A stretch of 64,000 bases of DNA, taken from NCBI RefSeq assembly GCF_001577755.1, contig NZ_CP010776.1, positions 3,410,001-3,474,000 on the forward strand, written 5' to 3'. Every line of letters starts with the position of its first letter. The stretch's first letter is position 1. The position numbers and the translations under genes are program-made. Of the stretch, positions 4,601 to 60,883 are shown piece by piece. The DNA comes from Rufibacter sp. DG15C (lineage in GTDB: Bacteria > Bacteroidota > Bacteroidia > Cytophagales > Hymenobacteraceae). The notes under the pieces are model-generated. The model did no database searches and was not told where the DNA came from. It saw only the letters and a list, made by a program, of their open reading frames with translations.

Positions 4601-4638
4601 CGTTTTTGGCTTGTTTTCCAGAAAATAGGCCAAAATCG
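4601..4638. repeat. 38-bp palindromic repeat, copy 1
   Basis: Left half-site CGTTTTTGGC at 4601, inner TTTTCCAGAAAA, right half-site GGCCAAAATCG with one change. It sits three bases after the DUF5686 gene and before a co-directional gene. Confidence 0.9.
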
Positions 4639-4696
4639 GAAATCGGTTTTCTTAAAAAAGTGTACCTTCACATAGGTTTATCACTTGATCACATCC

Positions 4697-5767
4697 ATGC
4701 GCGGGATTTTCCAGCCCTTTCTTCTCATAGTATTTTTGATAGTGACAGGCTGTAGCCAGGAGAAAAGGCAAGAGCGCATGTTTTCGCCTAAGCGGGTGAA
4801 CAGCAGCACTGCCGTGCAGATCAATGAGATTACCAGGGCCATCAACCAAGGGAACGAGCAGCCAGAGTGGTTTGTGAAACGAGCCAAGCTGTACCTATCC
4901 ATAGAAAAAGAAGCGCAAGCGTTGGCAGATCTAAACACTGCCATCAAAGAAGATCCTTCTCTAGGCGAGGCGTATTTCTTAAAAGCAAAAGTTTTGGTGG
5001 CCCGGCAGCAGTACCAAGAGTCCATGAAACTCATGATGCAGGCCAAGGAATTCAATTACTACACCCCAGAGTCTGAGGCGGTGCTAGCTGAAACCTATGT
5101 GGGCTTGAAACAATATGACCGTGCGCTTTCTCACAGCAGCAAGGCCGTGCAGCTAAGCCCAGGCGAGGCCAAGTTTTATGTGCTTCTGGCCAATGCCCAG
5201 TCAGGTACCGGAGATACGGTCAGGGCCATTGCTAACCTGGGCAAGGCTTTACAGCGTGATTCTGTTTCCTTGCCAGCCTACCGCGAACTTTCTGCCATCT
5301 ACACCGCCCAGAAGCGCTTTGAGGAGGCGTACCCCATGGTGAATACTGGCGTGAAGCAACAACCCAAAGATGCTTTCTGGTGGAGACAACTGGGACAGTA
5401 CTTTATGGCGTACAATTTAACAGATACGGCCATGGCCAGCTTTAACCGCTCTGTGGCCTTTGACCCCAATCATCCAGCAGCCTATTTGGGTTTGGCTCAG
5501 GCATGGTATAAGAAACGCCAGTATGCCATTGCCTTGGAGAACATTGTCAAGGCCCAGGAACTAGGCGCACCCTTGAATGAAGAGAACCGTTTTCTATTGG
5601 CCCGATGCTATGAATACACTGGCCTGCGTGAACTGGCCCGAAGCCATTACGCATTTTTAGCAAGAAAATACCCGCAAAACCCGCGTTATATGGTAGCTTT
5701 GCGCAAGTTGCAAACGCCTATTAAGCGTCCAACTATAGATACGTTAAGCACAACTTCGGTTTTTTAA
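4697..5767 (+). CDS. TPR-repeat lipoprotein
   Basis: About 356 aa. MRGIFQPFLLIVFLIVTGCS is a lipoprotein signal with lipobox VTGC, so the mature protein is anchored to a membrane by Cys. An upstream TTG at 4685 in the same frame is possible, but ATG at 4697 fits the signal peptide better. Eight or so tetratricopeptide repeats follow (for example AYLGLAQAWYKKRQYAIALENIVKAQ), as in scaffolds for protein-protein contacts. The last codons and the stop lie in the left arm of a palindromic repeat (copy 2). A C-terminal Thr/Ser-rich tail has no recognisable domain. The partner is unknown. Confidence 0.82.
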   Translation: MRGIFQPFLLIVFLIVTGCSQEKRQERMFSPKRVNSSTAVQINEITRAINQGNEQPEWFVKRAKLYLSIEKEAQALADLNTAIKEDPSLGEAYFLKAKVLVARQQYQESMKLMMQAKEFNYYTPESEAVLAETYVGLKQYDRALSHSSKAVQLSPGEAKFYVLLANAQSGTGDTVRAIANLGKALQRDSVSLPAYRELSAIYTAQKRFEEAYPMVNTGVKQQPKDAFWWRQLGQYFMAYNLTDTAMASFNRSVAFDPNHPAAYLGLAQAWYKKRQYAIALENIVKAQELGAPLNEENRFLLARCYEYTGLRELARSHYAFLARKYPQNPRYMVALRKLQTPIKRPTIDTLSTTSVF

Positions 5768-5795
5768 CTAAATTTCCGAAAACAAGCCAAAAACG
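5758..5795. repeat. 38-bp palindromic repeat, copy 2 (straddles a stop codon)
   Basis: The right arm (CCGAAAACAAGCCAAAAACG) is intact and the left arm is degenerate. The left arm contains the last codons and the TAA of the TPR lipoprotein gene, so part of the element is translated. Confidence 0.75.
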
Positions 5796-5819
5796 AAGAA
5801 GCATTTTCTTTTGACCCAT

Positions 5820-7754
5820 ATGATCAATATTACCTTACCAGACGGCTCTGTCCGTGAGTTTCAGGAAGGGGTGACTGGCATTGAGATAGCCGCCTCTATT
5901 AGCGAGGGCCTTGCCCGCAACGTATTAGCTGCCAAAGTAAACGGACAGGTATGGGACCTGACGCGTCCTATCACGCAAGACGCCGCCGTACAGTTGCTCA
6001 CCTGGAACGATGATGAAGGTAAGTCTACGTACTGGCACTCTTCGGCTCACTTATTGGCCGAGGCCTTAGAAGCCTTATATCCAGATGTGAAATTCGGCAT
6101 TGGACCGCCTATTGAGAACGGCTTCTATTATGATATTGACTTGGGTGACAGAACGCTTTCTCAGGAAGAATTCCCGGCCATTGAGCAAAAGATGCTGGAA
6201 CTGGCCCGCCAAAAAAGCGAGTTCATCCGCCGCGAGGTAAGCAAGGACGAAGCCGTCGCGTACTTTACCCAGAAAGGCGACAAGTACAAACTGGACCTGT
6301 TAGAAGGACTGCAGGACGGTACCATCACCTTCTATTCGCAAGGAAACTTCGTAGACCTATGCCGTGGTCCGCACATCCCTAACACCGGTTTCATCAAAGC
6401 CGCCAAGCTCATGAACGTGGCCGGTGCCTACTGGCGCGGTGATGAGAAGAGCAAGCAGCTGACCCGCGTGTATGCTATCACGTTCCCTAAGCAGAAAGAC
6501 CTCACTGAATACCTGGAGCGTCTGGAAGAGGCCAAGCGCCGCGACCACCGCAAGCTAGGTAAAGAAATGGAGTTGTTCGCTTTCTCTGAGAAGGTGGGCA
6601 TGGGCTTGCCGTTGTGGTTACCTAAAGGCACCATGCTGCGCGAGCGTTTGGAGAACTTCATGCGTAAGGCTCAGATGAAAGCCGGCTACCAGCCCGTAGT
6701 TACCCCGCACATTGGATCCAAAGAATTGTATGTGACTTCTGGTCACTATGAGAAATACGGGGCAGACTCGTTCCAGCCTATCAAGACTCCTAATGAGAAT
6801 GAGGAGTTCTTCTTAAAGCCCATGAACTGCCCGCACCACTGCGAGATTTATAAGACGCGTCCACGGTCGTATAAAGAGTTGCCGGTACGTCTAGCCGAGT
6901 TTGGAACTGTTTATAGATATGAGCAGAGCGGCGAATTGCACGGCCTGACCCGCGTAAGAGGCTTTACCCAGGATGATGCGCACATTTTCTGCCGTCCAGA
7001 CCAGGTGAAAGAGGAATTCACTAAAGTAATTGACCTGGTGTTGTATGTGTTCAAGGCCTTAGGGTTTGAGAACTACACCGCCCAAATCTCTCTGCGCGAC
7101 CCAGAAAACAAAGCCAAGTACATTGGTTCTGATGACCTTTGGGAGAAGGCCGAGAGTGCCATTATTGAGGCTGCTACTGAAAAAGGTCTGCCAACGGTAA
7201 CTGAATTGGGTGAGGCTGCGTTCTACGGACCAAAGCTGGACTTCATGGTGAAGGATGCCTTAGGCCGCAAATGGCAGCTAGGAACCATCCAAGTAGACTA
7301 CAACTTGCCAGAGCGGTTCCAGTTGGAATACATTGGCGCAGACAATGAAAAACACCGGCCGGTAATGATTCACCGTGCGCCGTTTGGTTCTCTAGAGCGT
7401 TTTGTGGCCGTTTTGATTGAGCACTGCGCGGGTAACTTCCCGTTGTGGCTGAGCCCAGACCAAATTGCCATTCTGCCTATCTCTGAGAAGTACCATGATT
7501 ATGCACAAAAGGTATTTGCCCAGTTGCAGGATCAAGACATTAGAGGCTACATAGACTCACGTGATGAGAAGATTGGTCGTAAAATCAGAGACGCCGAAGT
7601 GGGCAAAGTTCCGTACATGATCATTGTAGGGGAGAAGGAGCAGGAAAACGAAATCATTTCTGTGCGTAAGCATGGATTTGGCGATATGGGCAGCTTGCGC
7701 GTAGACGCCTTTGTAGACAACTTTAGAGAGGTTCTGGCAGAAATGCTGAACTAA
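5820..7754 (+). CDS. thrS: Threonyl-tRNA synthetase
   Basis: 644 aa from ATG at 5820 (a TTG three codons upstream is less likely). It charges tRNA-Thr with threonine in the cytoplasm. Domains run in the family order: N-terminal TGS ([14 protein letters not shown]), the SAD editing domain with its HSSAHLL and DLCRGPH metal motifs, the class II catalytic core with zinc ligands in [10 protein letters not shown] and [11 protein letters not shown], and the C-terminal anticodon-binding domain. Length is normal. It heads the cluster thrS-infC-rpmI-rplT, an arrangement also seen in E. coli and many other bacteria. There is no T-box, as expected outside Firmicutes-type regulation. Confidence 0.98.
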
Positions 7755-9123: not shown

Positions 9124-9161
9124 CGTTTTTGGCTTCTTTTCTGGAAAACAGGCCAAAAACG
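9124..9161. repeat. 38-bp palindromic repeat, copy 3
   Basis: CGTTTTTGGC and GGCCAAAAACG half-sites with inner TTTTCTGGAAAA. It lies 38 bases beyond the rplT terminator, so it is not needed to end that transcript. Confidence 0.93.
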
Positions 9162-11442: not shown

Positions 11443-11497
11443 CAAAAATGGAAGTGCCCATTGCCTTTATCTTGGACAACGGGCACTTCCATTTTTG
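11443..11497. terminator. Strong bidirectional hairpin terminator
   Basis: CAAAAATGGAAGTGCCC at 11443-11459 pairs with its exact complement at 11481-11497 (17 bp), with A and T runs on the outer ends. It lies between the Gre-like gene and the oppositely oriented tRNA. Its 3' arm overlaps palindromic repeat copy 4. The 440-base space 11365-11804 holds this hairpin, the repeat, the tRNA and the tRNA terminator; the remainder shows nothing I can name. Confidence 0.85.
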
Positions 11498-11527
11498 GCT
11501 TATTTTCCAGAAACTAGGGCAAAAACG
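11490..11527. repeat. 38-bp palindromic repeat, copy 4
   Basis: CATTTTTGGC and GGGCAAAAACG half-sites with inner TTTTCCAGAAA. It shares its first eight bases with the 3' arm of the adjacent terminator hairpin. Confidence 0.85.
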
Positions 11528-11600: not shown

Positions 11601-11603
11601 GTG

Positions 11604-11677
11604 TAGCGGGGAGCAGAATCGAACTGCCGACCTCAGGGTTATGAATCCTGCGCTCTAACCATCTGAGCTACCCCGCC
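11604..11677 (-). tRNA. tRNA-Met (CAT anticodon)
   Basis: The complement gives a full 74-nt cloverleaf: acceptor 5' GGCGGGG pairing with CCCCGCT plus discriminator A, D arm GCTC...GAGC, anticodon loop TTCATAA with anticodon CAT, variable loop, and T arm with GTTCGATTC. The CCA end is not encoded. Position 1-72 is a G-U pair rather than the unpaired C-A of bacterial initiators, so it is more likely elongator Met. A tRNA-Ile with lysidine-modified CAT cannot be excluded without identity-element comparison. The anticodon stem has one A-C mismatch next to the loop. Confidence 0.93.
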
Positions 11678-14233: not shown

Positions 14234-16384
14234 ATGTCATATAACGCTATAAATAAAACTATCCGCATGGCCAACGGCCGTGACATTACTATTGAAACCG
14301 GTAAACTGGCCAAGCAGGCAGACGGTTCTGTGGTAGTGAGATGCGGTAACGCCATGTTACTGGCAACCGTGGTATCCAACGTGGGTGCCCGCGAAGGAGT
14401 AGATTTCCTACCCCTTTCTGTTGACTACCAAGAGAAATTTGCCTCTAGCGGTAAGATTCCAGGTGGTTTCTTGAAAAGAGAAGCCCGTCTTTCTGACTAT
14501 GAAGTATTGATCAGCCGTCTGGTGGATCGTATCCTTCGTCCTATGTTCCCAGAGGATTACCACTCTGAGACCCAGGTGATCATCAACTTGATTTCTGCCG
14601 ACCCAGAAATCATGCCGGACGCTTTAGCTGCTTTGGCCGCTTCTGCCGCCCTTTCTGTTTCTGACATTCCGTTCAACGGACCTATCTCTGAAGTGAGAGT
14701 AGCCCGCATTGACGGTCAGTTCCAAATCAACCCATTGCTTTCTGACCTTAGCCGCGCAGACATTGACCTGATTGTAGGTGGTTCTGCAGACAGCGTTGCC
14801 ATGGTGGAAGGTGAAATGAGCGAGGTTTCTGAAGAAGAGATGCTAGAGGCCATCAGAGTTGCCCATGATGCCATCAAGATTCAGGTAGCCGTTCAGCAAG
14901 AATTGGCAGAAGAAGTTGGTAAAACCACCAAGCGCGAATACAGCCACGAGAGTCATAATCCTGAACTAAAGGAGATGATCTACAAAGCGGTGTATGACAA
15001 AGCCTACGGTGTTGCTGCTTCTGGTAACAGAGTGAAAGGTGAGCGCAAGTCTTCTTTCAAAGCCATTAAAGACGAGTTTGTCGCTTCTCTAGGCGAAGAC
15101 CATACTTATGATGCTGCCTTGATTGGAAAATACTTCCATGATGCAGAGAAAGACGCAGTACGTGACGTAGTTTTAAAAGAGCGTCGTCGTTTGGACGGTC
15201 GTCAACTAGATGAGATTCGTCCTATCTGGTCAGAAATCAACTATCTGCCATCTGCGCACGGTTCAGCTGTGTTCACCCGCGGTGAGACCCAGTCTTTGAC
15301 GACGGTGACTTTGGGAACCAAGATGGATGAGCAGATGATTGACGGCGCCATGTTCTCTGGCTACAACAAATTCATGTTGCACTACAACTTCCCTCCATTC
15401 TCTACCGGTGAGGCCAAGCCTATGCGCGGTACGGGTCGAAGAGAAGTAGGGCACGGTAACCTGGCCATGCGTTCTTTGAAGAAGGTATTGCCGCCAGAAG
15501 ATACCAACCCATACACCATTCGTATTGTTTCTGACATCTTAGAATCTAACGGTTCTTCTTCTATGGCTACCGTTTGCGCGGGTACTTTGGCCTTGATGGA
15601 TGCCGGTATTCAGATCAAAGCACCAGTTTCTGGTATCGCCATGGGATTGATCATGGATGAGACCACGGGTAACTTTGCCGTTCTTTCTGACATCTTAGGT
15701 GACGAGGATCACTTGGGCGACATGGACTTTAAAGTAACAGGTACGGCTAAAGGTATAACGGCTTGCCAGATGGACATCAAGGTGAAAGGTCTTTCTTTTG
15801 AGATCTTGGGCCAGGCTTTGTCTCAGGCAAGAAACGGTCGTCTGCACATCTTGGGTGAGATGAACAAAACCATCTCTCAACCAGCCGCTGACTTCAAACC
15901 GCATGCTCCTCGTTCACAGAATATCATCATTGAAAAAGAATTCATTGGTGCGGTGATTGGACCAGGCGGTAAAGTTATCCAGCAGATCCAGCGTGACTCT
16001 GGTGCGGTGATCCAGATTGAAGAGAAGAATGACAAAGGCTACGTGAACGTATTTGCCACCAACCAGGAAGCCATGCAAATGGCGGTCTCTAAGATCAAGG
16101 CGATTGTGGCCGTTCCAGAGGTAGGCGAAGTGTACACGGGCAAAGTGAAATCTATCCAGCCTTACGGTGCGTTTGTGGAATTCATGGCAGGTAAAGACGG
16201 TTTGCTACACATTTCTGAAGTGAAGTGGGAGCGTCTTGAGAGCATGGAAGGAGTGTTGGAACTAGGTGAGGAAATCCAGGTTAAACTGGTGGACGTTGAC
16301 CCTAAAACCGGTAAGTTCAAGCTTTCTAGAAAGGCATTACTGCCTAAGCCAGAGAGAAATACAGAAGCTCCGCAAAATAACTAA
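14234..16384 (+). CDS. pnp: Polyribonucleotide nucleotidyltransferase (PNPase)
   Basis: 716 aa. It degrades RNA 3' to 5' using phosphate and works as a trimer. Two RNase PH domains are present, the second holding the catalytic stretch around [20 protein letters not shown], then a KH domain ([20 protein letters not shown]) and an S1 domain ([16 protein letters not shown]). Length is normal. A GC-rich hairpin with a U-run follows the gene. In E. coli pnp controls its own mRNA through RNase III cleavage of a leader hairpin; no such leader hairpin stands out here. Confidence 0.98.
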
Positions 16385-16400: not shown

Positions 16401-16447
16401 CCCAACCATACGCGTTCTATAGAAGAGAACCGGATGGTTGGGTTTTT
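16401..16447 (+). terminator. Intrinsic terminator after pnp
   Basis: CCCAACCAT pairs with ATGGTTGGG and is followed by TTTTT. The T-run is at the same time the left half-site of palindromic repeat copy 5, so the two elements overlap. Confidence 0.85.
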
Positions 16448-16478
16448 GGGCTTCTTTCCAGAAAGTAAGCCAAAAACG
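16441..16478. repeat. 38-bp palindromic repeat, copy 5
   Basis: GGTTTTTGGG and AGCCAAAAACG half-sites with inner TTTCCAGAAA. The left half-site is fused to the pnp terminator. Confidence 0.85.
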
Positions 16479-17540: not shown

Positions 17541-17578
17541 CGTTTTTGGCCTCTTTCCTAGAAACTAGGCCAAAAACG
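17541..17578. repeat. 38-bp palindromic repeat, copy 6
   Basis: Perfect outer half-sites CGTTTTTGGC and GCCAAAAACG with inner TTTCCTAGAAA. It lies after the rpoD terminator and about 105 bases before trxB. Confidence 0.93.
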
Positions 17579-20545: not shown

Positions 20546-20599
20546 AAGAGCTCCGTCTTTGGCCTGTTTTCTGTAAAACAGGTCAAAAACGGAGCTCTT
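20546..20599. terminator. Extended palindrome acting as a convergent terminator
   Basis: Repeat copy 7 is lengthened by matching flanks AAGAGCTC and GAGCTCTT, giving a nearly perfect inverted repeat of 54 bases. It lies between the convergent bshB1 and accC genes. Confidence 0.7.
20554..20591. repeat. 38-bp palindromic repeat, copy 7
   Basis: CGTCTTTGGC and GGTCAAAAACG half-sites, inner TTTTCTGTAAAA. It sits between convergent genes and is embedded in a longer inverted repeat. Confidence 0.92.
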
Positions 20600-23967: not shown

Positions 23968-25272
23968 CTAAAGCGCCTTTACCAAATAATAATTCTTTTT
24001 GCCTTTCTGCACTACCAGGTATTTGCCTTGTAGCAGGTCAGAAGTGATGGTTTCATCAGGCGTAGCCACCTTCTGGCGGTTAATGCTCACGCCTCCGTTC
24101 TGGATCATTTTCTTGGCTTCGCCTTTTGACTCAAAAATCTGGTTTTGGGTCAATTCAGACAAGAAATCCACGGCTTGGGCGCCGTTTGCTAAATTTTCTT
24201 TAGAAATTTCTATCTGCGGAACGCCTTCAAAAACGGCCAGCAGGGTAGACTCTGGCAAACCGCGCAACGTCTCCAAATCGCCCTTGCCAAACAGAATCTG
24301 CGAAGCCTCCACCGCGCTCTCAAACTCCTCAGCCGAGTGCACTGTGGTAGTCACTTCCTTGGCTAAGGCTTTCTGCAGGACGCGTAGGTGCGGTGCTTGG
24401 GCGTGCTCTTCTACTAAAGCAGCAATTTCTTCCTGCGTTAGCAAAGTAAAGCGCTTAATCAGGTTCTCGGCTTCGTCATCTCCTACGTTCAGCCAGAACT
24501 GGTAAAACTTGTAGGGGCTGGTCATGACAGGGTCCAACCACACGTTGCCGCTTTCAGACTTACCAAACTTGCTGCCGTCTGCCTTGGTCACCAAAGGAGT
24601 GGTCAAGGCATAAGCCTTGCCGCCTTCCATGCGTCTTATGAGCTCAGTGCCAGAGGTGATGTTTCCCCACTGGTCAGAGCCACCCATCTGCAGGCGCACA
24701 TTCTTGTGTTTGTACAGGTGCATGTAGTCATATCCCTGCAACAACTGGTAAGAGAACTCCGTGAACGAAAGACCTTCGGCGCCGTCTTCGCCTTCCTGCG
24801 CGGTGATGCGCTTTTTGACGGAGTCTTTCTTCATCATGTAGTTCACCGTGAGGTGCTTGCCCACATGGCGCAAGAAGTCCAGGAAGGAGAACTCTTTGAA
24901 CCAGTCATAGTTGTTGACCATCTCTGCCGCGTTGGGCACATTCCCGAAGTTCAGGAACTTCTCCAACTGCTTTTTAATGCCGGCTTGGTTGTCTCTCAAA
25001 ACATCCTCAGACAAGAGGTTACGCTCCGCTGATTTACCGGAAGGGTCACCAATCATACCCGTGGCACCGCCCACCAAAGCGACAGGCTTGTGTCCAGCGC
25101 GCTGCAGGTGCACCAACAGCATGATGGTGGCCAGGTTGCCTATGTGCAGCGAAGATGCCGTGGGGTCAAAGCCAATGTAGGCCGTGGTCATCTCTTTCTG
25201 CAGTTGTTCTTCTGTGCCTGGCATGGTGTCTTGTAACATTCCGCGCCAGCGCAGTTCTTCAATCAAATTCAT
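23968..25272 (-). CDS. tyrS: Tyrosyl-tRNA synthetase
   Basis: 434 aa from ATG at 25272. An upstream extension of the open frame reads through palindromic repeat copy 8 and is not part of the protein. It charges tRNA-Tyr. The class I signatures are HIGN (in [12 protein letters not shown]) and KFGKS (in [16 protein letters not shown]). A tyrosine-binding core with GYDYMHLYK and MGGSDQWGN lies between them, and a C-terminal S4-like RNA-binding domain ([15 protein letters not shown]) is complete. A TATCTTTG element at 25294-25301 fits a promoter about 20-30 bases upstream of the start. Confidence 0.97.
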
Positions 25273-25293
25273 GTAGCTCAGTTTTAACTGGTC

Positions 25294-25301
25294 CAAAGAT
25301 A
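25294..25301 (-). promoter_or_regulatory. Possible -7 element for tyrS
   Basis: On the minus strand the bases read TATCTTTG, a full match to TANNTTTG, about 22 bases upstream of the tyrS start. No TTTG is found 19 bases further upstream, so it is tentative. Confidence 0.4.
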
Positions 25302-25353
25302 CACCACATCTTTTAATTTGACAGAAGCATATAGCGGCCATCCCCAAGACAGT

Positions 25354-25391
25354 CGTTTTTGGCTTGTTTTCTGGGAAACAGGCCAAAAATG
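25354..25391. repeat. 38-bp palindromic repeat, copy 8
   Basis: CGTTTTTGGC and GGCCAAAAATG half-sites, inner TTTTCTGGGAAA. It lies in the space between a lipoprotein gene and tyrS, both on the minus strand. Confidence 0.92.
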
Positions 25392-25898: not shown

Positions 25899-25936
25899 CG
25901 TTTTTGGCTTGTTTCCTGAGAAACAAGCCAAAAACG
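25899..25936. repeat. 38-bp palindromic repeat, copy 9
   Basis: CGTTTTTGGC and GCCAAAAACG, with GGCTTG in the left arm matched by CAAGCC in the right arm, a paired change from the GGCCTG/CAGGCC form. It lies between divergent genes, where a terminator would serve neither. Confidence 0.93.
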
Positions 25937-27085: not shown

Positions 27086-27123
27086 CGTTTTTGGCCTACT
27101 TTCCAGAAAACAAGCCAAAAACG
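27086..27123. repeat. 38-bp palindromic repeat, copy 10
   Basis: CGTTTTTGGC and AGCCAAAAACG half-sites with inner CTTTCCAGAAAA. It begins three bases after the holA stop, before the co-directional envelope operon. Confidence 0.93.
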
Positions 27124-32006: not shown

Positions 32007-33215
32007 ATGATTCAGCGGCACATAAAATCTTTGTTGTACACGTATGATTGCGTGATCATCCCAGAGTTTGGGGGATTGATTATGCATTATGCGTCGGCTA
32101 AAATCCATCCGGTAAAGCACACGTTTTCACCGCCCTCTAAGCGCATTGCCTTCAATGAACAATTGAAGGTGAACGATGGCTTGCTCATTACCACCCTGGC
32201 CCATCAACAACAGTGGCCCATGGCCAAAGCGCAACAGACCGTAAACGAGTTTGTGCGGGACTTGAAGGAGCAGCTGCAGACCAAGCACCAGTTTGAGTTA
32301 AGCGAGATAGGGACGTTCCGGTACAATGCGGAGCACAAGCTGGTGTTTGAAAGCCTGGACCAGGAGAACTTTTTGGAGCACAGCTTCGGCTTGCCGGAGT
32401 TGGTGTCTAAGCCAATCTTAGGAAGAGACACCTTGGTACTACGTGGTAAATTCCAGGACCAACCAGCCAAGTATGAAACCGGGTTAAAGGTAGGCAGCCG
32501 TTTGCGTAAGCTGTTAAAAGTAGGTGCGGGATTGGTAATTGGCGGTATTGCCATCTCAGGCGTGTACTTGTATTCCTTGCAAAAGGACGTAGCCTTAAGC
32601 TCGCTCAACCCATTTGAATTGGTTTTTTCCTCTAATCAAGTAGAGCCTGCGCCAGTGACCAAAGTAGACTCTCCAGTCTCAGAAAAATCTGCCGCCATGG
32701 ACGCCTATGAGCAATCCTTGCTTGCCGCCCAATCTGAAGCAGACACAACTTTGGTAGAAGAAGATGCATTAGGATCTCAGGAGGCTGAATCAGTTTCAGG
32801 CCAATTCTCAGAAAATAGCCCGAAAACGGAAGTGGTTAATCCAGAGCCTGTTGCCTTGCCTGAAGTAAAGGAAGAGGTGAAGACAGTAGGGCCCACAGTA
32901 GCTCCTAAAACAGCCGTTGCCGCTCCAAAAGTAGAGGTAAAGGCTAAAACGAAAGTTGCCAACACCACTACAATTAAAGGCAAAACCAATCGTTTCTATA
33001 TCATTATGGGCGCATTTGCAGAGAATGAGTTTGCGCGCATGAACCAGAAGAGCCTCAGCAAAAAAGGATTCAACGCCAAAACCATTCTTCCTTCCAGACA
33101 AAGCAAATGGCACAGAGTCTCTGTCGCAGATTTCGCCACGGAGGCAGAAGCTATGGACGCCTTGCCAACCTTACGTAAAGACGTAAGCCAAGAACTTTGG
33201 GTACTAAACTATTAA
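32007..33215 (+). CDS. HU-CCDC81 / SPOR domain protein with a transmembrane helix
   Basis: 402 aa. Residues about 1-130 match the HU-CCDC81 class of the HU/IHF fold: IQRHIKSLLYTYDCVIIPEF, then FNEQLKVNDGLLITTLA and FELSEIGTFRYNAEHKL. A single helix at 171-190 (KVGAGLVIGGIAISGVYLYS) crosses the membrane. A Pro/Glu/Val-rich linker of about 130 residues follows, then a SPOR domain at 325-402 (FYIIMGAFAENEFARMNQKS, ending KDVSQELWVLNY). SPOR domains bind glycan strands lacking stem peptides at division sites. The topology puts the HU-like domain in the cytoplasm and SPOR in the periplasm. DNA binding is suggested by the fold but not shown for this protein. Confidence 0.9.
   Translation: MIQRHIKSLLYTYDCVIIPEFGGLIMHYASAKIHPVKHTFSPPSKRIAFNEQLKVNDGLLITTLAHQQQWPMAKAQQTVNEFVRDLKEQLQTKHQFELSEIGTFRYNAEHKLVFESLDQENFLEHSFGLPELVSKPILGRDTLVLRGKFQDQPAKYETGLKVGSRLRKLLKVGAGLVIGGIAISGVYLYSLQKDVALSSLNPFELVFSSNQVEPAPVTKVDSPVSEKSAAMDAYEQSLLAAQSEADTTLVEEDALGSQEAESVSGQFSENSPKTEVVNPEPVALPEVKEEVKTVGPTVAPKTAVAAPKVEVKAKTKVANTTTIKGKTNRFYIIMGAFAENEFARMNQKSLSKKGFNAKTILPSRQSKWHRVSVADFATEAEAMDALPTLRKDVSQELWVLNY
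32792..32828. repeat. Degenerate palindromic repeat inside the linker of the HU-CCDC81/SPOR gene
   Basis: GTTTCAGGCC and GCCCGAAAACG flank CTCAGAAAATA, about 37 bases, one base shorter than the family. It encodes part of the poorly conserved linker (VSGQFSENSPKTEVV). Match to the consensus is weak and may be chance. Confidence 0.35.
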
Positions 33216-37241: not shown

Positions 37242-37279
37242 AAATTTTGGCTTATTTCCTGGAAAGTAGGCCAAAAACG
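37242..37279. repeat. 38-bp palindromic repeat, copy 11
   Basis: AAATTTTGGC and GGCCAAAAACG half-sites with inner TTTCCTGGAAA. It lies between convergent trmB and the TrpF-like gene, directly before a terminator hairpin. Confidence 0.88.
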
Positions 37280-38043: not shown

Positions 38044-38081
38044 CGTTTTTATCGTGTTTTACTGGAAATAGACCAAAAATG
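38044..38081. repeat. 38-bp palindromic repeat, copy 12 (diverged)
   Basis: CGTTTTTATC and GACCAAAAATG half-sites, inner TTTTACTGGAAA. It abuts the start codon of the TrpF-like gene in a divergent intergenic space, so it would be transcribed in that gene's 5' leader. Confidence 0.7.
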
Positions 38082-43458: not shown

Positions 43459-43497
43459 AAAAAAAGCCTTCTCATTTCTGAGAAGGCTTTTCGTTTT
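43459..43497. terminator. Bidirectional terminator after the TonB-type receptor
   Basis: AAAAGCCTTCTCA pairs with TGAGAAGGCTTTT around TTTC (13 bp), followed by T residues that merge with repeat copy 13. It lies between convergent genes. Confidence 0.88.
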
Positions 43498-43529
43498 TGG
43501 CCTGTTTTCAAGAAAATAGCCTGAAACTG
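43492..43529. repeat. 38-bp palindromic repeat, copy 13
   Basis: CGTTTTTGGC is intact, while the right arm AGCCTGAAACTG is degenerate. Inner TTTTCAAGAAAA is kept. The left half-site overlaps the tail of the terminator. Confidence 0.8.
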
Positions 43530-45702: not shown

Positions 45703-46983
45703 ATGAAGACGTATCTATATCCAGCCCTAACAGAATGGGCAAGATTGATGCAACGGCCGGTCCAGCGATTGGATCAATTGCGGACCGGCGTGCAGGAAAC
45801 CTTTGACTTAGTTAAGGAAAAAGGAGACGCAGCCTTGATAGAACTGGCTGCCAAGTTTGACAAATCTGACTTGCAATCTGTTTGGGTCTCAGAAGAAGAA
45901 ATTACCGAAGCGCTGCCCCAGGTTACTCAGGAATTGAAAGACGCTATTGAAGTGGCGTATGCCAATATCAGCAAGTTCCATGAATCCCAACACGAGCCAG
46001 TACAACAGATAGAAACCATGCCGGGCGTGACCTGCTGGCGTAAGTCGGTGGGCATTCAAAAAGTTGGTTTATACATTCCAGGTGGCACGGCGCCTTTGTT
46101 CTCTACCTTGTTGATGTTGGGAATCCCGGCGCAGCTTGCCGGTTGTAAAGAAATCATTTTGGCTACGCCGCCCAGCGCAGATGGCTCCATCAACGCAACT
46201 ATTCTGTACACGGCCCACCGTTTAGGCATCAAGCGCATTCTAAAAGCAGGAGGGGCCCAGGCCATTGCGGCTCTGGCCTTCGGGACGGAGACGGTGCCAG
46301 CCGTGGACAAGATCTTCGGACCGGGTAACCAATACGTGACGGCCGCCAAGCAAATGGTAACCCAGCTAGGCGTAGCCATTGACATGCCCGCTGGCCCTTC
46401 AGAGGTGTTGGTGATAGCAGATGACTCCGCTGACGCAGACTTCGTGGCCGCTGACCTTTTATCTCAGGCAGAACACGGCCCAGACTCTCAAGTCGTTTTT
46501 GTCACGAATTCTGAAAAACAGCTCAAAAACGTGCAAGAAGCCATGCAAAGACAAGTAGCGGTATTACCCCGGCAGACCGTAGCCCAGCAGGCACTGGACA
46601 ACAGCATAGGAGTGGTGCTTTCTTCACTAGAGGAGGCTTTAGACTTCTCTAATCTTTATGCTCCTGAGCACTTGATTCTGTCCGTAGACAAACCAGAAAA
46701 AATGGCCGCGCAGGTGACGCAAGCTGGATCGGTGTTTATGGGACACTTTAGCCCGGAGAGCGTAGGAGATTATGCTTCAGGGACTAATCACACATTGCCC
46801 ACCAACGGATATGCCCGAAACTATAGCGGTGTTTCTCTGGATAGCTTCGTGAAGAAAATCACGTTCCAGCAACTGACCAAAGAAGGATTACAGCGCATTG
46901 GCCCCGCCGTAGAAACCATGGCCGACGCCGAAGGCCTGCACGCGCACAAAAACGCGGTCACCATTCGCTTAGCGAAGATTTAA
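45703..46983 (+). CDS. hisD: Histidinol dehydrogenase
   Basis: 426 aa from ATG at 45703. It oxidises histidinol to histidine in the last two steps, with NAD and zinc. Motifs include [64 protein letters not shown] and the zinc and catalytic region YAPEHLIL. Length is normal. A 38-bp stretch at 46494-46531 matches the palindromic repeat family in about 30 of 38 bases yet sits inside a normally sized part of the protein ([14 protein letters not shown]). Confidence 0.97.
46494..46531. repeat. Palindromic repeat-like sequence inside hisD
   Basis: CGTTTTTGTC and CTCAAAAACG ends exactly 38 bases apart with TTCTGAAAAACAG in the middle, about 30 of 38 consensus positions by hand count. The reading frame and the apparent length of the protein are unaffected. 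Confidence 0.6.
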
Positions 46984-47028: not shown

Positions 47029-48090
47029 ATGTTTTCAATAGAGAAGATTATCCGTCCGCACTTATTGGGGCTCAAGCCGTACTCTTCGGCAAGGGACGAG
47101 TTTGAGGGCGAGGCCAGCGTCTACCTGGACGCAAACGAGAATAACCTGGGCAGCCTGGCCGGTGGCGTAGACTACAACCGCTACCCAGACCCCTACCAAA
47201 AAGCCATCAAAGAGAAACTGGCCAAATTGAAAGGTGTAAGGCCAGAGCAGATTTTCATTGGCAACGGCTCTGACGAGGCTATTGATTTACTGGTGCGCCT
47301 GGTATGCGAGCCCGGTCAGGACGAGGTCCTACTGCTTCCGCCAACGTACGGCATGTATGAGGTAAGCGCCAACATCCACAACATAGGAATCCAGCGCGTG
47401 GCTTTGGATGAGCGTTTTCAGCCTGATTTCCAGAAAATAGGCCAAAAACAGACGGAGCGCACCAAAATCCTTTTCCTCTGCTCGCCTAATAATCCCACCG
47501 GGAATATTCTGGACCCGGCCACCGTAGAGCAGCTTATTACCTCTTTCAACGGGTTGGTAGTAGTGGATGAGGCCTATATTGATTTCACCGAGCAGCCCAG
47601 CTGGAGCACCCGCTTAGACGAGTTTCCCAATCTGGTGGTGTTGCAGACACTTTCCAAAGCCTGGGGCATGGCCGGGTTGCGCCTGGGCATGGCCTTTGCC
47701 TCGCCGGACATCATCAGCTTCCTCAACAAAATCAAGCCGCCGTACAACGTCAATGTAGTGACACAGGAGTTGGTCAGCGATGCCTTGGACAAAACCGCCC
47801 AGTTAAATGACATGCTGCAAGTGATTGTTGGGGAGCGCGCCCGGGTGATGGAGGCCTTTGACGCCATGGACCTCATTGAAAAGGTGTATCCCTCAGACGC
47901 CAACTTCGTGCTAGTGCAGGTTCCTAATGCGAATCAATTATATGCCTTTCTGTTGGAGCGGGGTGTGGTGGTCAGGAACCGTTCTACCCAGCCCGGCTGT
48001 ACCAATTGCCTCCGAATTACCATTGGCACGCCTGCAGAAAACGACCACTTGTTGGAGTCCTTACACGCTTACAAGGCGCATACAGTCTAA
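47029..48090 (+). CDS. hisC: Histidinol-phosphate aminotransferase
   Basis: 353 aa. It converts imidazole acetol phosphate to histidinol phosphate with PLP. Family motifs: YLDANENNLG near the N-terminus, IGNGSDEAIDLLVR, LCSPNNPTGNIL, VVDEAYIDF, and the PLP lysine in LQTLSKAWGMAGLRLG. The motif RSTQPGCTNCLRITIG closes the protein. Length is normal. A 38-bp stretch at 47413-47450 matches the palindromic repeat family in about 31 of 38 positions and encodes FQPDFQKIGQKQ, where homologues have a segment of the same length. Confidence 0.97.
   Translation: MFSIEKIIRPHLLGLKPYSSARDEFEGEASVYLDANENNLGSLAGGVDYNRYPDPYQKAIKEKLAKLKGVRPEQIFIGNGSDEAIDLLVRLVCEPGQDEVLLLPPTYGMYEVSANIHNIGIQRVALDERFQPDFQKIGQKQTERTKILFLCSPNNPTGNILDPATVEQLITSFNGLVVVDEAYIDFTEQPSWSTRLDEFPNLVVLQTLSKAWGMAGLRLGMAFASPDIISFLNKIKPPYNVNVVTQELVSDALDKTAQLNDMLQVIVGERARVMEAFDAMDLIEKVYPSDANFVLVQVPNANQLYAFLLERGVVVRNRSTQPGCTNCLRITIGTPAENDHLLESLHAYKAHTV
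47413..47450. repeat. Palindromic repeat-like sequence inside hisC
   Basis: CGTTTTCAGCCTG at the left and TAGGCCAAAAACA at the right, with inner ATTTCCAGAAAA, exactly 38 bases; about 31 of 38 consensus positions by hand. It is the best intragenic match and lies wholly in the coding frame. Confidence 0.75.
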
Positions 48091-48097: not shown

Positions 48098-48135
48098 CGT
48101 TTTTGGCCTCATATTCAGAAATCAGGCCAAAAACG
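48098..48135. repeat. 38-bp palindromic repeat, copy 14
   Basis: CGTTTTTGGCCTC and CAGGCCAAAAACG half-sites with inner ATATTCAGAAAT. It starts seven bases after hisC, within the his operon, where a terminator would cut off hisBHAFI. Confidence 0.93.
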
Positions 48136-49906: not shown

Positions 49907-50626
49907 ATGGAAATCATCCCGGCCATTGACTTGATTGGCGGCCAGTGCGTCCGCCTCACCGAAGGCGACTTTGCCCAACAGACCACCTACCACTCCGACC
50001 CTGTAGAAGTAGCCAAACAATTTGAAGGCCTTGGCTTAAAGAGGCTGCACTTGGTGGACTTGGACGGTGCCCGCGCCAAGCAACCGGTCAATCTGCCCAT
50101 TCTGGCGCGCATTGCCCGTGAAACCAAACTACACATTGACTACGGCGGAGGGCTGCAAAGCTTGGAGGCGGTGCAACAAGCTTTTGACGCTGGGGCCAAA
50201 CAGATCACTGCCGGCAGCATTGCCGTGCGCGAGCCTAAGACGGTGCAGAAATGGCTGAAGGAATTTGGGGCAGACCGCATCATTGTGGGCGCCGACTTTA
50301 AAGACAACCGCATCGCGATCAATGCCTGGGCTGAGCAGAGTGATTTGACCTTGGAGGCGTTTTTGGCCTCTTTTTCAGAAAAGGGCGCAAAAACGTTCAT
50401 CTGCACAGATGTAAGTAAGGATGGCAAACTGCAAGGTTCGTCTATAGACATCTACCAAAAGTTGATTGCGCAGTTCCCGACGTTGCAGTTCATTGCCAGC
50501 GGCGGGGTGACTACCATTGAGGAAGTCCGGGAGCTGCGGGCGGCGGGATTGCATGGCGCTATCATTGGCAAGGCCATCTATGAAGGGACCATCACCCTGG
50601 AGGATTTAGCCAAAGAAGTGGTTTAG
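49907..50626 (+). CDS. hisA: ProFAR isomerase (phosphoribosylformimino-AICAR ribotide isomerase)
   Basis: 239 aa, TIM barrel. Isomerises ProFAR to PRFAR. It has the first catalytic Asp in IPAIDLIGGQCVRL, the phosphate-binding IDYGGGLQSLEAVQ, and the second catalytic Asp in ICTDVSKDGKLQGSSIDIY. The C-terminal IASGGVTTIEEVRELRAAG completes the barrel. A 38-bp stretch at 50358-50395 matches the palindromic repeat family in about 30 of 38 positions and encodes AFLASFSEKGAKTFI, where family members have a segment of equal length. Confidence 0.97.
   Translation: MEIIPAIDLIGGQCVRLTEGDFAQQTTYHSDPVEVAKQFEGLGLKRLHLVDLDGARAKQPVNLPILARIARETKLHIDYGGGLQSLEAVQQAFDAGAKQITAGSIAVREPKTVQKWLKEFGADRIIVGADFKDNRIAINAWAEQSDLTLEAFLASFSEKGAKTFICTDVSKDGKLQGSSIDIYQKLIAQFPTLQFIASGGVTTIEEVRELRAAGLHGAIIGKAIYEGTITLEDLAKEVV
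50358..50395. repeat. Palindromic repeat-like sequence inside hisA
   Basis: CGTTTTTGGCCTC at the left and GGGCGCAAAAACG at the right, exactly 38 bases, about 30 of 38 consensus positions by hand. In frame, with no visible disturbance of the protein. Confidence 0.7.
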
Positions 50627-51507: not shown

Positions 51508-51545
51508 CGTTTTTGGCCTAATTTGGATAAAACAGGCCAAAAACG
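51508..51545. repeat. 38-bp palindromic repeat, copy 15
   Basis: CGTTTTTGGCCTA and CAGGCCAAAAACG half-sites with a diverged middle (ATTTGGATAAAA). It lies between hisF and hisIE, inside the operon. Confidence 0.93.
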
Positions 51546-52924: not shown

Positions 52925-52974
52925 AACTCCCGTTTTTGGCCTGTTTCCTGGAAAAGAAGCCAAAAACGGGAGTT
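52925..52974. terminator. Extended palindrome around repeat copy 16
   Basis: Repeat copy 16 is lengthened by AACTCC and GGAGTT flanks to a nearly perfect 50-base inverted repeat. It lies between the LytTR and tetR genes (both minus strand) and may end the LytTR transcript, though no U-run follows. Confidence 0.5.
52931..52968. repeat. 38-bp palindromic repeat, copy 16
   Basis: CGTTTTTGGCCTG and AAGCCAAAAACG half-sites, inner TTTCCTGGAAA. One of two copies with extra complementary flanks. Confidence 0.93.
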
Positions 52975-58716: not shown

Positions 58717-58754
58717 CGTTTTTGGCTTGTTTGCTGGAAAAGAGGCCAAAAACG
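58717..58754. repeat. 38-bp palindromic repeat, copy 17
   Basis: CGTTTTTGGC and GGCCAAAAACG half-sites with inner TTTGCTGGAAA. It ends two bases before the stop codon of the convergent nucleoid-associated-protein gene. Confidence 0.93.
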
Positions 58755-58756: not shown

Positions 58757-59806
58757 TTAGCTAACTTCTTCTTCGTCAAAGTAAAGTTTATAGAACTTGC
58801 GGCCATCTGCGTCTTCGCCTTTCACAATCATGTCCTTGTTGCCGTGAATGTACACGTGAAAGTTCTTGTCCAGCTTTAGGACGCTCTTAAACACCCTAGA
58901 CTGCTTCTTGACGGCTTGCGAAGAAATCCCGAAACTGTCTTCAATCTCCACCTCATAGTTTTGCCGGTACTCGCCGTCAAAGTTTCTGAAAGATTCAATC
59001 AGCTCGGGTTGCTGGCCGAAGACTTCGGTCTCAAATTCTTCCTTGTCAAAGGTCTCATGCTTGGTGAAGTATTCCGCTGATTTGTTCAAGAGCAGAATCT
59101 GGTCGGTTTTCTCTACTTCAAACTCTTCTGTGAGGCGCTCAGAGATGAATTCTTTGGTGAGGTTCAGGAAATGGCTGGTCTGGTGAAACTCGTTGCTAAT
59201 CTGGGTGAGGCCCAAAAAATTCTGTCGCCAGTATTGTGCTTCTTCGCCGCGGTTCTGGTTGTCAATGATGGCTGCCACGTAACCCTCTTCGCGCTCAATA
59301 TTGAAGATGATACAACCTTTGTCAAACTTGTTGCTGTCAATGCCTTCCAGGTAGGAGATGGTAAAATCACGGTTCTTGCGCTGTACGTCAAAGTACCCGT
59401 TCTTAACCTCGGTCTTGAAAATGCCCACGGCCTCTACCACGCGCTCGTCAATTTCGCAGTTTATGAAATGACAAACGTACAATTCGCCGGGTTTTATTTT
59501 AGGGTGGCTGGAGCTTTCAAATAAGTGGCGGGCAATGCTCCTTGAGTTCTCCTGAAAATTGTCCTTGTCTGCGAAGATATTGTCACAGTAACTATACACC
59601 TCATTAAACTTTAACGAAGAGGCATGCGTGAACTTGAACCGCTCATGGGCCGTGGCAAATTTGTTCAGGAAGAACTTCTCCAGTTTTTCTGTAAGCCCAT
59701 CGCCCGGCGCGAAGGGGTTTTCAGAAAGAGTCAGTTTCTGCTCAAGACCTTTGTTGCCCACATGGTGAACAGATAAACTGGTAAGCGAGGCGGTGTCAAA
59801 TTTCAT
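58757..59806 (-). CDS. 37-kDa nucleoid-associated protein family (NdpA/YejK-like)
   Basis: 349 aa. It matches the 37-kDa nucleoid-associated protein family over most of its length: SLTSLSVHHVGNKGLEQKLT, an N-terminal LKFNEVYSYCDNIFADKD, GELYVCHFINCEIDERVVEA, and the C-terminal DRVVTEQ-type region here given as NFLGLTQISNEFHQTSHFLN. Members associate with DNA in E. coli (YejK) with no agreed role. The gene lies between two palindromic repeats (copies 17 and 18). A TATTTTTG -7 element at 59853-59860 on the minus strand is a promoter candidate. Confidence 0.85.
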   Translation of the reverse strand: MKFDTASLTSLSVHHVGNKGLEQKLTLSENPFAPGDGLTEKLEKFFLNKFATAHERFKFTHASSLKFNEVYSYCDNIFADKDNFQENSRSIARHLFESSSHPKIKPGELYVCHFINCEIDERVVEAVGIFKTEVKNGYFDVQRKNRDFTISYLEGIDSNKFDKGCIIFNIEREEGYVAAIIDNQNRGEEAQYWRQNFLGLTQISNEFHQTSHFLNLTKEFISERLTEEFEVEKTDQILLLNKSAEYFTKHETFDKEEFETEVFGQQPELIESFRNFDGEYRQNYEVEIEDSFGISSQAVKKQSRVFKSVLKLDKNFHVYIHGNKDMIVKGEDADGRKFYKLYFDEEEVS

Positions 59807-59852
59807 CTGCTAAACTATGTGCGTAATTGATTTAGAAAGAAAATAGGGAGGA

Positions 59853-59860
59853 CAAAAATA
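59853..59860 (-). promoter_or_regulatory. Possible -7 element for the nucleoid-associated-protein gene
   Basis: TATTTTTG on the minus strand, a full match to TANNTTTG, 47 bases upstream of the start. No TTTG at the expected distance. In the 340-base divergent space 59807-60146, only this element and repeat copy 18 are recognisable. Confidence 0.4.
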
Positions 59861-59919
59861 CAGTTTCTTGCCTGAACTGTGCCTATTTATTCTTTGACCA
59901 TAAGTAGGGTGAGGCACGT

Positions 59920-59957
59920 CGTTTTTGACCTGTTTTCTGGAAAGTAGCCTAAAACTG
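59920..59957. repeat. 38-bp palindromic repeat, copy 18
   Basis: CGTTTTTGAC and GCCTAAAACTG half-sites, inner TTTTCTGGAAA. It lies in a divergent intergenic space. Confidence 0.82.
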
Positions 59958-60146
59958 GCCTAATTTCAATAAATGCTATTATAGAACAGGAGGGAGGTTT
60001 CTTTTTAAAATCCTTGAAGGAAAATCTAGTTTTTTAAAGAAGATTGGTAATAGGAGAGCGAGCATCCATAAATTATATTCAAGGTTTTGAATCTTTAATG
60101 CGTAGATGGTAGTAAGGAAAAGGACTTAAACCCTGTTCCACTAAAA

Positions 60147-60821
60147 TTGAAATCTGCCTTGATGATTGCCGGTTATGTGTTTCTGTCCATCTGTGCGTTT
60201 GTACTAGTATATTTTTTGGTGGCGTTTATTTTGTCTAGATGGGGCGTGGCTAAAGAGCCGCAAACCAAAGAAGAAGTCACTATTTACATACTTACCAATG
60301 GCGTGCACACAGACTTGGTGGTACCTGTTAAGCATGCACTTTTTGACTGGAATAAGTACATCAATTACCAGCACACCAAAGGAAAAGACAGCACGGCCAA
60401 CTGGGTGGCCTTTGGTTGGGGCGATAAAGGCTTTTACCTGGAAACGCCTACCTGGGCCGATTTGAAAGTGAGCACCGCCTTTAAAGCCGCTACGGGCTTA
60501 AGCAATTCGGCCATTCATGCCACGTTTTATCAAAACATGGAAGTGTCTGAAGATTGCAAACGCATTCAAATCAGCGTTCAGCAATACATCCGTCTCATCA
60601 AATTCATTAAAAATAGGTTTGACCTAGACTCTAAAGGCAAGCCCATCCATATCCAAACCAATGCCAACTATGGTCTCAATGACGCTTTCTATGAGGCCAA
60701 AGGCAGCTACAATCTCTTTTACACATGTAACACCTGGGCCAACAACGGCCTAAAAGCCTCAGGCCAAAAAGCCAGCGTCTGGACACCATTTTATCAAGGC
60801 ATATTTTACCAATATCAGTAA
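60147..60821 (+). CDS. TIGR02117 / DUF2459 family protein
   Basis: 224 aa from TTG at 60147; ATG at 60162 is an alternative that would shorten the N-terminus by five residues. An N-terminal membrane helix (SALMIAGYVFLSICAFVLVY) anchors it. The rest has the DUF2459 pattern: IYILTNGVHTDLVVPVKH, VAFGWGDKGFYLETPTWADL, and NLFYTCNTWANNGLKASGQK at the C-terminus, a possible Cys-His pair. The fold is predicted to be NlpC/P60-like, but no activity is known. It does not belong to an operon with its neighbours. Confidence 0.82.
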   Translation: MKSALMIAGYVFLSICAFVLVYFLVAFILSRWGVAKEPQTKEEVTIYILTNGVHTDLVVPVKHALFDWNKYINYQHTKGKDSTANWVAFGWGDKGFYLETPTWADLKVSTAFKAATGLSNSAIHATFYQNMEVSEDCKRIQISVQQYIRLIKFIKNRFDLDSKGKPIHIQTNANYGLNDAFYEAKGSYNLFYTCNTWANNGLKASGQKASVWTPFYQGIFYQYQ

Positions 60822-60845
60822 TTCTTCTTAAGCATTCTTCTTAAA

Positions 60846-60883
60846 CCGTTTTTGGCCTAATTTTGAGGACATAGGCCAAAAAC
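60846..60883. repeat. 38-bp palindromic repeat, copy 19
   Basis: CGTTTTTGGCCTA and TAGGCCAAAAACG: the left-arm change to CTA is matched in the right arm (TAG), so pairing is preserved. The middle (ATTTTGAGGACA) is diverged. Confidence 0.93.

Follow-up and report, generated by a model that had tools for sequence, protein, structure and literature searches.

Palindromes bound by dimeric proteins, as the Rufibacter site described here may be, include the matS, parS, SlmA and Noc sites; unlike the Rufibacter site, these are far fewer, shorter and regionally placed, and are not known to come in species dialects. The closest parallel is the dialects of DNA-uptake sequences. As described in PMC3630211 and PMC2397512, the DUS of Neisseriaceae resemble the Rufibacter element in that they occur in thousands of chromosomal copies and in dialects, are concentrated in those stretches of the core genome that tolerate them and often also occur as inverted pairs. 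DUS are also scarce in acquired DNA (acquired genes in PMC2397512), with which the site-poor second contig and the defence island described below may compare. In the same accounts, however, a DUS is a 10–12-mer of which one copy suffices, whereas the Rufibacter unit is a near-obligatory 38-bp palindrome, and a PF00437 search for pilus ATPases in Rufibacter had no match over the cut-off. The USS of Pasteurellaceae likewise combine a recognised core and adjoining rigid AT-tracts with genome-wide dispersal, but are described as non-palindromic and enter the cell through type IV pilus machinery (PMC7811141, PMC1939737); PMC1939737 presents known uptake sequences as non-palindromic and unevenly spaced. 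REP and REPIN elements with RAYT transposases are, according to PMC3733652 and PMC6006769, short, numerous, species-specific palindromes that are mostly extragenic, with some intragenic copies. In contrast to these, the Rufibacter site has no GTAG-type tag, no Y1 transposase was detected in the genome studied, covariation between the arms is slight in most copies and copies in coding sequence show no net insertion.

A fixed-length palindrome in Rufibacter sp. DG15C

The window, a 64-kb stretch of DNA from Rufibacter sp. DG15C (genome G000), contains 22 sites, each 38 bp long, that score ≥24 against the 32 stem positions of the consensus, whereas 20 Markov-1 simulations of 64 kb produced none at ≥22 of 32. 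The fixed-length palindromes noticed in the original prediction are present at the coordinates given there. A looser score (18 core bases plus 7 pairs, threshold ≥18) again returned 22 sites, where 25 simulations led one to expect 0.12 per 64 kb, and three matches in 540 kb from five other genera. The two sets differ by one site each (5758..5795 with the first score only, 32791..32828 with the second only), giving 23 places in total; the 19 copies of the original prediction may be site 5758 together with the 18 that lie outside ORFs. A search for L and R half-sites no more than 120 bp apart, allowing up to 2 mismatches in each, gave 23 pairs, of which 18 spanned 38 bp, two could be read as 37 bp and three were longer; 37-bp forms are rare and were seen in relatives. 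Genome-wide, 243 copies carried both exact 10-bp half-sites, compared with none for a reversed-pattern control. Extrapolation from ten of twenty G000 stretches (200 kb, picked without regard to known hits, except that L105 was already known to be without exact hits; the other ten were picked where hits were known) gave a total of ∼1,600–1,650 copies, with ∼0.4 sites per kb along the sampled chromosome. Density ranged from 0.2 to 0.7 per kb across the 20 stretches, with no clear trend along the chromosome; perfect copies were sparser at 1.45–2.34 Mb (4 of 49), between bounds picked post hoc.

Each element consists of two mirror-image half-sites (CGTTTTTGGCCTGTTTT in G000) at fixed spacing, and T- and A-tracts recur ∼11 bp apart inside each half. 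Strong half-sites had a partner in 301 of 315 cases and stood alone in six, so that the unit is not a single short non-palindromic motif of the DUS or USS kind. The two half-sites vary mostly independently of each other, as was seen in 172 copies at those positions that change most, and the half-scores of the two arms were uncorrelated (r = −0.003, 178 copies). Covariation reached z values of 2.5–2.8 at positions 7, 8 and 12 in G000; the high values at positions 6 and 16 each rest on one doubly changed copy. In genome G012, 22 of 36 copies are paired at position 7, where 12 would be expected (z 3.6). Neither a transcription-strand bias nor an imbalance of 5′/3′ halves or loop orientation was seen in 86 co-directional copies. 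The near-obligatory pairing suggests a symmetric double-stranded site that is probably read by a protein, and the mostly independent, nearly always paired halves favour the earlier proposal that a protein binds here through two half-sites set apart from each other.

Gaps between sites had a coefficient of variation (CV) of 0.75, compared with 1.19 for random placement in non-coding DNA. Even spacing as a sign of compaction was nevertheless rejected, since the effect vanishes under a one-per-junction null (0.80 vs 0.87 ± 0.08, unremarkable); the low CV mostly reflects that there is at most one site per junction.

Placement relative to genes

In 464 kb of G000, 128 of 274 gene junctions, about half, hold a site, usually no more than one each. 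Convergent junctions do so most commonly (34 of 50, compared with 16 of 45 divergent ones), coding DNA is avoided, and co-directional copies follow closely on the stop codon of the preceding gene, at a median distance of 26 bp. ORFs derive from a simple longest-ORF script, so coding and intergenic labels are rough near gene starts; the context table behind the inverted-repeat, flank-pairing and T-tract counts given below covers 168 of the 178 copies, ten being omitted as unclassifiable or too near a stretch end. Within the window, convergent junctions contain the sites at 20554..20591 (also in relatives G013, G006 and G005, and weaker in G008), 37242..37279 and 43492..43529 (also in G013, G006, G012 and G005), while divergent ones contain those at 25899..25936, 38044..38081 (which falls short of the threshold in four of the five relatives) and 59920..59957, as had been predicted for both placements. 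Sites at 9124..9161, 17541..17578 (also in G013, G006 and G005) and 60847..60884 occupy co-directional junctions, and 52931..52968 lies between two minus-strand genes. Several copies are very close to stop codons: 4601..4638 begins 3 bp past the stop of 2126–4597, 58717..58754 lies 2 bp beyond that of a NA37 nucleoid-protein gene (58757–59806, minus strand), and 27086..27123, again 3 bp past a stop codon, recurs in G013, G006, G012 and G005, each time at offset 7 counted from the tblastn gene end, and was not found in G008. Further copies are near tRNA-Met (11490..11527; tRNA at 11603–11677), downstream of a PNPase-like gene (16441..16478; gene at 14234–16384), between hisC and a hisB-like gene (48098..48135) and downstream of hisF (51508..51545), where G012 alone of five relatives has a site.

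The original prediction had all copies intergenic, which does not hold. Three sites lie in frame within hisD (46494..46531), hisC (47413..47450) and hisA (50358..50395), and the weaker site at 32791..32828 is within ORF 32007–33215, which encodes a HU-CCDC81/SPOR protein. Two more overlap ORF ends, namely 5758..5795 at the 3′ end of ORF 4685–5767 (24/32, second score 17, with a similar site in G013) and 25354..25391 at the longest-ORF start of 23968–25386 (minus strand), for which relatives could not be mapped by the script. Three of the four coding copies keep the same codon position in relatives. The hisD site does so with no net gap in G013, G006, G012, G005 and G008 (scores 14–19), the hisC site in the same five genomes, weakly in G012, and the hisA site in 16 of 16 Rufibacter genomes (22–27 of 32); the position of the fourth, 32791, shifts between species. 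The alignable coding copies thus arose without insertion. More broadly, 28 of the 178 G000 copies overlap ORFs by >80%, and 20 are wholly within ORFs of ≥100 aa, compared with 4.7–7.0 after synonymous-codon shuffles; at scores of ≥21, 13 were observed vs 0.1–0.4. A low-GC 12-kb defence island contains no sites, and the three other site gaps of >9 kb comprise accessory-looking genes, a giant surface-protein gene and ordinary genes.

Distribution and species dialects

A relaxed core was present in 16 of 16 Rufibacter genomes and in none of 84 genomes from five other genera (control 0); these pattern counts are not densities, as G012 had six by pattern yet 0.39 sites per kb by score. Among five genomes (G000, G013, G006, G012 and G005) we found four consensus half-sites at the same 38 bp, with G000 and G013 sharing one and the dialect matrices for the other genomes and G013 built on 16–27 copies each. 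The inner spelling differs among the species compared, while the sites tend to hold the same junctions in the single 64–80-kb region to which the comparison of orthologous junctions and coding sites was confined. There, G000 and G013 have sites at 12 common junctions, with 2 and 1 held singly and 15 by neither (p = 1e-5), and G006 and G005 at 10, with 0 and 1 held singly and 13 by neither (p = 6e-6); sharing was not significant in pairs with G012 (9–10 junctions) or G008 (p = 0.07). At coding sites, a species' own dialect scored best in 8 of 12 species–site cases and that of another species higher in 4 of 12. What looks like compensatory change between species is in large part dialect difference. 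The second contig of G012 (155 kb, 120 kb read) contained 4 sites, compared with 31 in 80 kb of chromosome; the G012 matrix had been trained on chromosome copies, and an untrained score gave the same counts. That of G008 had 2 in 67.5 kb vs 9 in 80 kb, so that depletion is clear only in G012. Dialects, common junctions and this near-absence all lay out of sight of the original prediction.

A genome-contig collection gave no match to the exact consensus and 36 stretches with a degenerate pattern. A viral source was rejected: the exact half-site pattern of the G000 dialect produced two isolated matches in IMG/VR, neither of them with the inner core, which was also missing from three stray matches in Alphaproteobacteria, Roseovarius and Hymenobacter MAGs. 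Search listings of the open-licence literature on Rufibacter palindromes, palindromic repeats and uptake specificity did not contain the element, nor did they hold a relevant report on natural transformation in Hymenobacter.

Possible roles of the site

Of the roles considered, we hold the likeliest, with a probability of roughly 0.4, to be that of a signal by which the cell may recognise its own DNA in uptake and recombination, much as the DUS of Neisseriaceae and the USS of Pasteurellaceae work, but served by a candidate pilus-independent receptor. The double-stranded site would be read by a protein specific for its sequence, probably in the form of a symmetric dimer, and when the specificity of this protein changed, the sites would follow by molecular drive. 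The independent, paired half-sites, the restriction to the genus, the dialects, the common junctions and the coding sites in excess of shuffles argue for an uptake role, which the site-poor second contig of G012 and the site-free defence island would fit too. Against it stand the lack of PF00437 matches over the cut-off, the absence of DUF5689 from G000, the palindromy, the even gaps and the nearness to upstream stops, together with some arm covariation, the four foreign-dialect wins and the non-significant sharing with G012 and G008. PF00437, the T4P/T2SS ATPase family, exceeded the cut-off in 0 of 16 Rufibacter genomes and in 13 of 14 controls, with sub-threshold matches in 8 of 16, in a search confined to the ATPase. 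ComEC and DprA are encoded in 16 of 16, which is weak evidence because both also occur in E. coli. In PMC8459023 and PMC7965970, Riemerella (Bacteroidota) is described as competent although pilus homologues were not found, and transformation of R. columbina as being outcompeted by DNA of R. columbina itself but not by the same quantity of foreign DNA. Of the 16 Rufibacter genomes, 8 have the DUF5689 gene that Riemerella requires and 8 lack it, G000, G013 and G012 among them; for these three, this route was rejected. No uptake or competence data on Rufibacter were found in the open-licence literature.

Nearly as likely, the site would be bound inside the cell, at about half of the junctions, by a protein that organises the chromosome or sets boundaries in it, in a nucleoid-associated, domain or insulator role, and whose co-evolution with its sites would have produced the dialects. 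Mirror symmetry and near-obligatory pairing suit a soluble dimer, and the tracts ∼11 bp apart, the avoidance of coding DNA, the preference for convergent over divergent junctions and the gap CV below that of random placement are all consistent with it; but the spacing is unremarkable under the one-per-junction null, a coordinated change of specificity at >1,000 sites would be hard to explain without drive, the second contig of G012 is nearly without sites, and a candidate binding protein was not found. Both this role and the uptake signal had been among those originally suggested, and both survive. The third, an RNA-stability hairpin, is weakened because the arms of G000 copies covary weakly, or do so in a minority only, and because there is no strand bias. 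More generally, an RNA hairpin that would end transcription or shield the mRNA at the 3′ ends of transcripts appears unlikely, and the near-independence of the two halves in G000 speaks against it as the main role. It would fit the short distance of co-directional copies from upstream stops, the 22 of 168 classified copies that sit in longer inverted repeats, the covarying arms of 32 copies with flank pairing of ≥5 of 8 and position 7 in G012, whereas the 118 copies without flank pairing show excess pairing only at position 8 (z 3.0), halves and loop are unbiased in orientation, and sites also occur in divergent junctions and within genes. The T-run is 5′ and the A-run 3′ of the centre, a T-tract accompanies only 2 of 22 extended copies, and instead of the GC-rich stem and U-tract of an intrinsic terminator, a downstream T-rich stretch was found in just 5–20% of copies, depending on context. 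Terminator-like hairpins, some of which may include the site itself, were equally common at G000 junctions with and without a site (convergent 37/64 vs 14/34; co-directional 18/73 vs 16/88; counts in relatives were small and mixed), bearing out the earlier view that termination alone does not explain the copies and leaving replacement of intrinsic terminators unsupported in G000. A REP- or MITE-type mobile palindrome spread by a transposase is highly improbable, for all that copy number is high, placement mainly extragenic and occurrence confined to the genus, and that 15 of 16 Rufibacter genomes have Y1 transposases. A genome-wide search for transposases of the Y1 kind (PF01797) had no match in G000, a GT[AG]G tag was near only 6 of 178 copies, three of four coding copies keep their codon position, and at the same junctions other species carry sites spelled in a different dialect. 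The version with a Y1 transposase was rejected for G000, in line with the original view that this is not a described REP/RAYT element.

If the site is a self-DNA signal, uptake-sequence biology would reach Bacteroidota without detected type IV pili, and the genus would offer natural dialect variation for finding the receptor; if it organises the chromosome, it would be a dense, protein-read landmark with a code that varies by species. Under either reading, the concerted change of >1,000 sites, an extrapolated number, would be a rare and directly testable case of molecular drive. We tentatively consider, as a rather doubtful extension, that such elements are genome signatures with which lineages mark their own DNA, comprising a long, obligatorily dimeric site, a candidate pilus-independent receptor and a spelling rewritten in concert at >1,000 positions per species, and that some sister-genus species may use unrelated ones, such as GCCCTAGGTG, to the same end. 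This different dispersed word occurs in 821–1,064 copies in three species of one sister genus.

Abundance and genus-wide spread of the 38-bp palindrome

The dispersed 38-bp palindromic repeat claimed in the original prediction proved real: the window holds 22 copies with at least 24 of 32 stem matches, and 20 simulated windows gave none at ≥22 matches. Across the window's own genome (a single contig of 4.14 Mb, in which the window occupies positions 3,410,001–3,474,000), we found 243 copies with both 10-bp half-sites exact and none with the reversed control; among the matches listed (up to 1.53 Mb), these copies were 38 bp long. Ten 20-kb stretches of this genome, not selected for known matches, contained 80 copies, extrapolating to ∼1,650 per genome, compared with 3 copies in 540 kb of five other genera at the same score. 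The consensus, CGTTTTTGGCCTGTTTTC-YN-GAAAACAGGCCAAAAACG, is built of two mirror-image half-sites, 17 bp each, that flank a loose centre; its T- and A-tracts lie ∼11 bp apart.

A relaxed core (CGTTTT-N7-TTT-N6-AAA-N7-AAAACG) was present in all 16 Rufibacter genomes, at 5 to 888 copies each, and in none of 84 genomes from five other genera; the control pattern gave 0 matches. With the half-sites required exactly, a narrower search, 13 of these Rufibacter genomes had matches and none of 43 others did; in named genomes, 33 of the 36 stretches matched in this way were Rufibacter. By score, fifteen relatives carried from 0.10 (G015) and 0.11 (G008) up to 0.42 sites per kb. Five relatives were read across the window's region: G013 spells the site as the window does, and G006, G012 and G005 have their own spellings, at unchanged length (TGTTTTGGGCCTG, CGTTTTCGGGCTCA and CGTTTAGGGGCTG, respectively). 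The fifth relative, G008, and likewise G015 have sparse, degenerate sites (stretches L099–L102 and L123–L124), which look decayed, as they might after loss of the system that reads them.

Placement and largely independent variation of the two arms

In 464 kb of the window genome we located 178 copies. Considering junctions of at least 38 bp, a copy was present at 34/50 convergent, 78/179 co-directional and 16/45 divergent ones, co-directional copies lying a median of 26 bp downstream of the preceding stop; 28 of the 178 overlapped ORFs by >80%. A junction usually held one copy at most, and gaps <300 bp made up 4% of spacings versus 25–32% in the nulls. Terminator-like hairpins were equally frequent with or without a copy (37/64 versus 14/34 at convergent and 18/73 versus 16/88 at co-directional junctions), with low numbers and mixed direction in the relatives, and the 5′ T-run and 3′ A-run stand in the opposite order to an intrinsic terminator. 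An Rfam search of the window returned only a tRNA. Perfect-consensus copies were scarce (4/49) between 1.45 and 2.34 Mb of the contig, possibly the terminus half, at normal total density. In the window, one site lies 2 bp past the stop of a gene for an NA37-type nucleoid-associated protein (58757–59806, minus strand); we found no evidence that this protein reads the site.

To compare the arms we used 172 copies of the window genome chosen on core bases alone. At the five most variable positions (10, 11, 13, 14 and 17) the arms were independent, with 103, 108, 70, 85 and 119 pairs observed and 100, 107, 73, 91 and 115 expected. A slight pairing excess was seen at positions 1, 7, 8 and 12 (z 2.0–2.8) and also in the flanking bases (maximum z 4.4), and high z values at positions 6 and 16 each stemmed from a single doubly changed copy. 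Largely, this excess came from a minority of copies lying in longer inverted repeats: the arms covaried in the 32 copies with flank pairing, and the 118 without it retained a signal only at position 8 (z 3.0). Covariation was clearer in G012 (36 copies) at position 7, with 22 pairs versus 12 expected, and likewise at positions 1 and 17; in G013, G006 and G005 (27–32 copies) z reached at most 2.5 within the motif. The scores of the two half-sites did not correlate, and in the 86 co-directional copies examined neither the halves nor the centre showed a bias with respect to transcription. Strong half-sites numbered 315, of which 301 were partnered, 8 had a weak partner and 6 stood alone. A base-paired element would be expected to covary throughout, unlike these arms, whereas largely independent, unbiased and nearly always paired half-sites are the pattern expected from a symmetric protein reading double-stranded DNA. 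We predict that the element is a double-stranded dimer site read by a protein, with a probability of roughly 0.85.

Sites within genes, shared junctions and site-free regions

The hisD, hisC and hisA sites keep an identical codon position with no net gap in the five relatives, and the hisA position is kept in 16 of 16 Rufibacter species; judging from sequence comparison, these coding sites arose by substitution, not insertion. A fourth coding site, at 32791, is weaker, shifts between species and is uninformative; its ORF (32007–33215, plus strand) encodes two HU-CCDC81 prokaryotic domains and a SPOR domain. Synonymous codon resampling at the three his sites gave much lower scores (p ≤ 2e-4 in 14 of 15 species-site cases; p 0.011 for hisC of G012). 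Since these sites had been picked by their match, all 370 ORFs provide the fair test: they contained 20 copies, against means of 4.7 when synonymous codons were resampled by usage (at most 8 in any of 12 runs) and 7.0 when they were permuted within genes (at most 11), and 13 copies at a score of at least 21 against 0.1–0.4 in the randomised sets. Counting the window genome and G013 as a single dialect, the 12 coding species-site cases split into 8 in which the species' own spelling scored highest and 4 in which another dialect did.

At orthologous junctions of the window's region, occupancy was common to species above expectation. Junctions occupied in both, in either one only and in neither numbered 12, 2, 1 and 15 for the window genome and G013 (p 1e-5), 10, 3, 2 and 10 with G006 (p 0.004), 8, 3, 3 and 11 with G005 (p 0.015), and 10, 0, 1 and 13 for G006 and G005 (p 6e-6). 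Sharing was not significant with G012 (9–10 junctions per pair) or with G008 (p 0.07). The site after ORF 26030–27082 has an identical offset in four relatives and is absent in G008.

Sites were rare on the 155-kb second contig of G012, with 4 in 120 kb read versus 31 in 80 kb of chromosome; for the smaller contigs of G008 the contrast was weaker (2 in 67.5 kb versus 9 in 80 kb). Four site-free gaps >9 kb were found in the stretches of the window genome: a low-GC defence island (L122:1–12404) with GmrSD, an N6/N4 DNA methylase, a PLD-like protein and a non-specific endonuclease; mostly a giant, repeat-rich surface-protein gene; luciferase-like monooxygenases with an efflux pump; and ordinary genes. 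Foreign DNA is therefore not the source of every gap.

Candidate roles and dispersed words in other genera

The RAYT-type REP/MITE element named as the refuting case in the original prediction was looked for: a search for Y1/RAYT-family transposases, some of which occur in 15 of 16 Rufibacter genomes, gave nothing in the window genome, and a REP tag was missing near 172 of the 178 copies; we rejected a REP/RAYT identity for this genome. No transposase was among the 20 window proteins first scanned, and the two pattern matches in viral contigs both lacked the inner core.

An uptake or self-recognition signal is, on our analysis, the leading though tentative candidate. The site resembles DNA uptake sequences (DUS), as described in PMC3630211 and PMC2397512, in its dialects, shared permissive positions, in-gene sites beyond protein demands and the near-empty second contig of G012. 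It differs in that the 38-bp unit is a nearly obligatory palindrome and in that pilus ATPases were not detected in Rufibacter genomes. According to PMC8459023 and PMC7965970, Riemerella, of the same phylum, is competent without pilus homologues and favours its own DNA, although one surface gene required there is absent here. Binding by a chromosome-organising dimer protein, a tentative alternative of almost equal probability, would account for symmetry and placement as well as uptake does, but not easily for the change of dialect or the empty second contig.

Dispersed lineage-specific signatures may be common across the family. GCCCTAGGTG, an extended CCTAGG(T), had 821, 1,035 and 1,064 copies in three of eight genomes of a sister genus (G019, G028 and G062; control word, 0–1) and at most 50 in the other 97 of 100 family genomes. 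In the G019 stretches read (L150–L152, L164–L167), CCTAGG occurred 125 times in 140 kb (0.9 per kb) versus 47 expected from base composition, 77 inside called ORFs and 48 outside; four other genera had 0–5 versus 18–39 expected. Separately, over-represented intergenic words overlapping AAAACGCTATGG were seen in G016 (L143–L145, L168–L170) and others overlapping AGCCATATATAA in G017 (L146, L156–L159), in each case in one genome of its genus.
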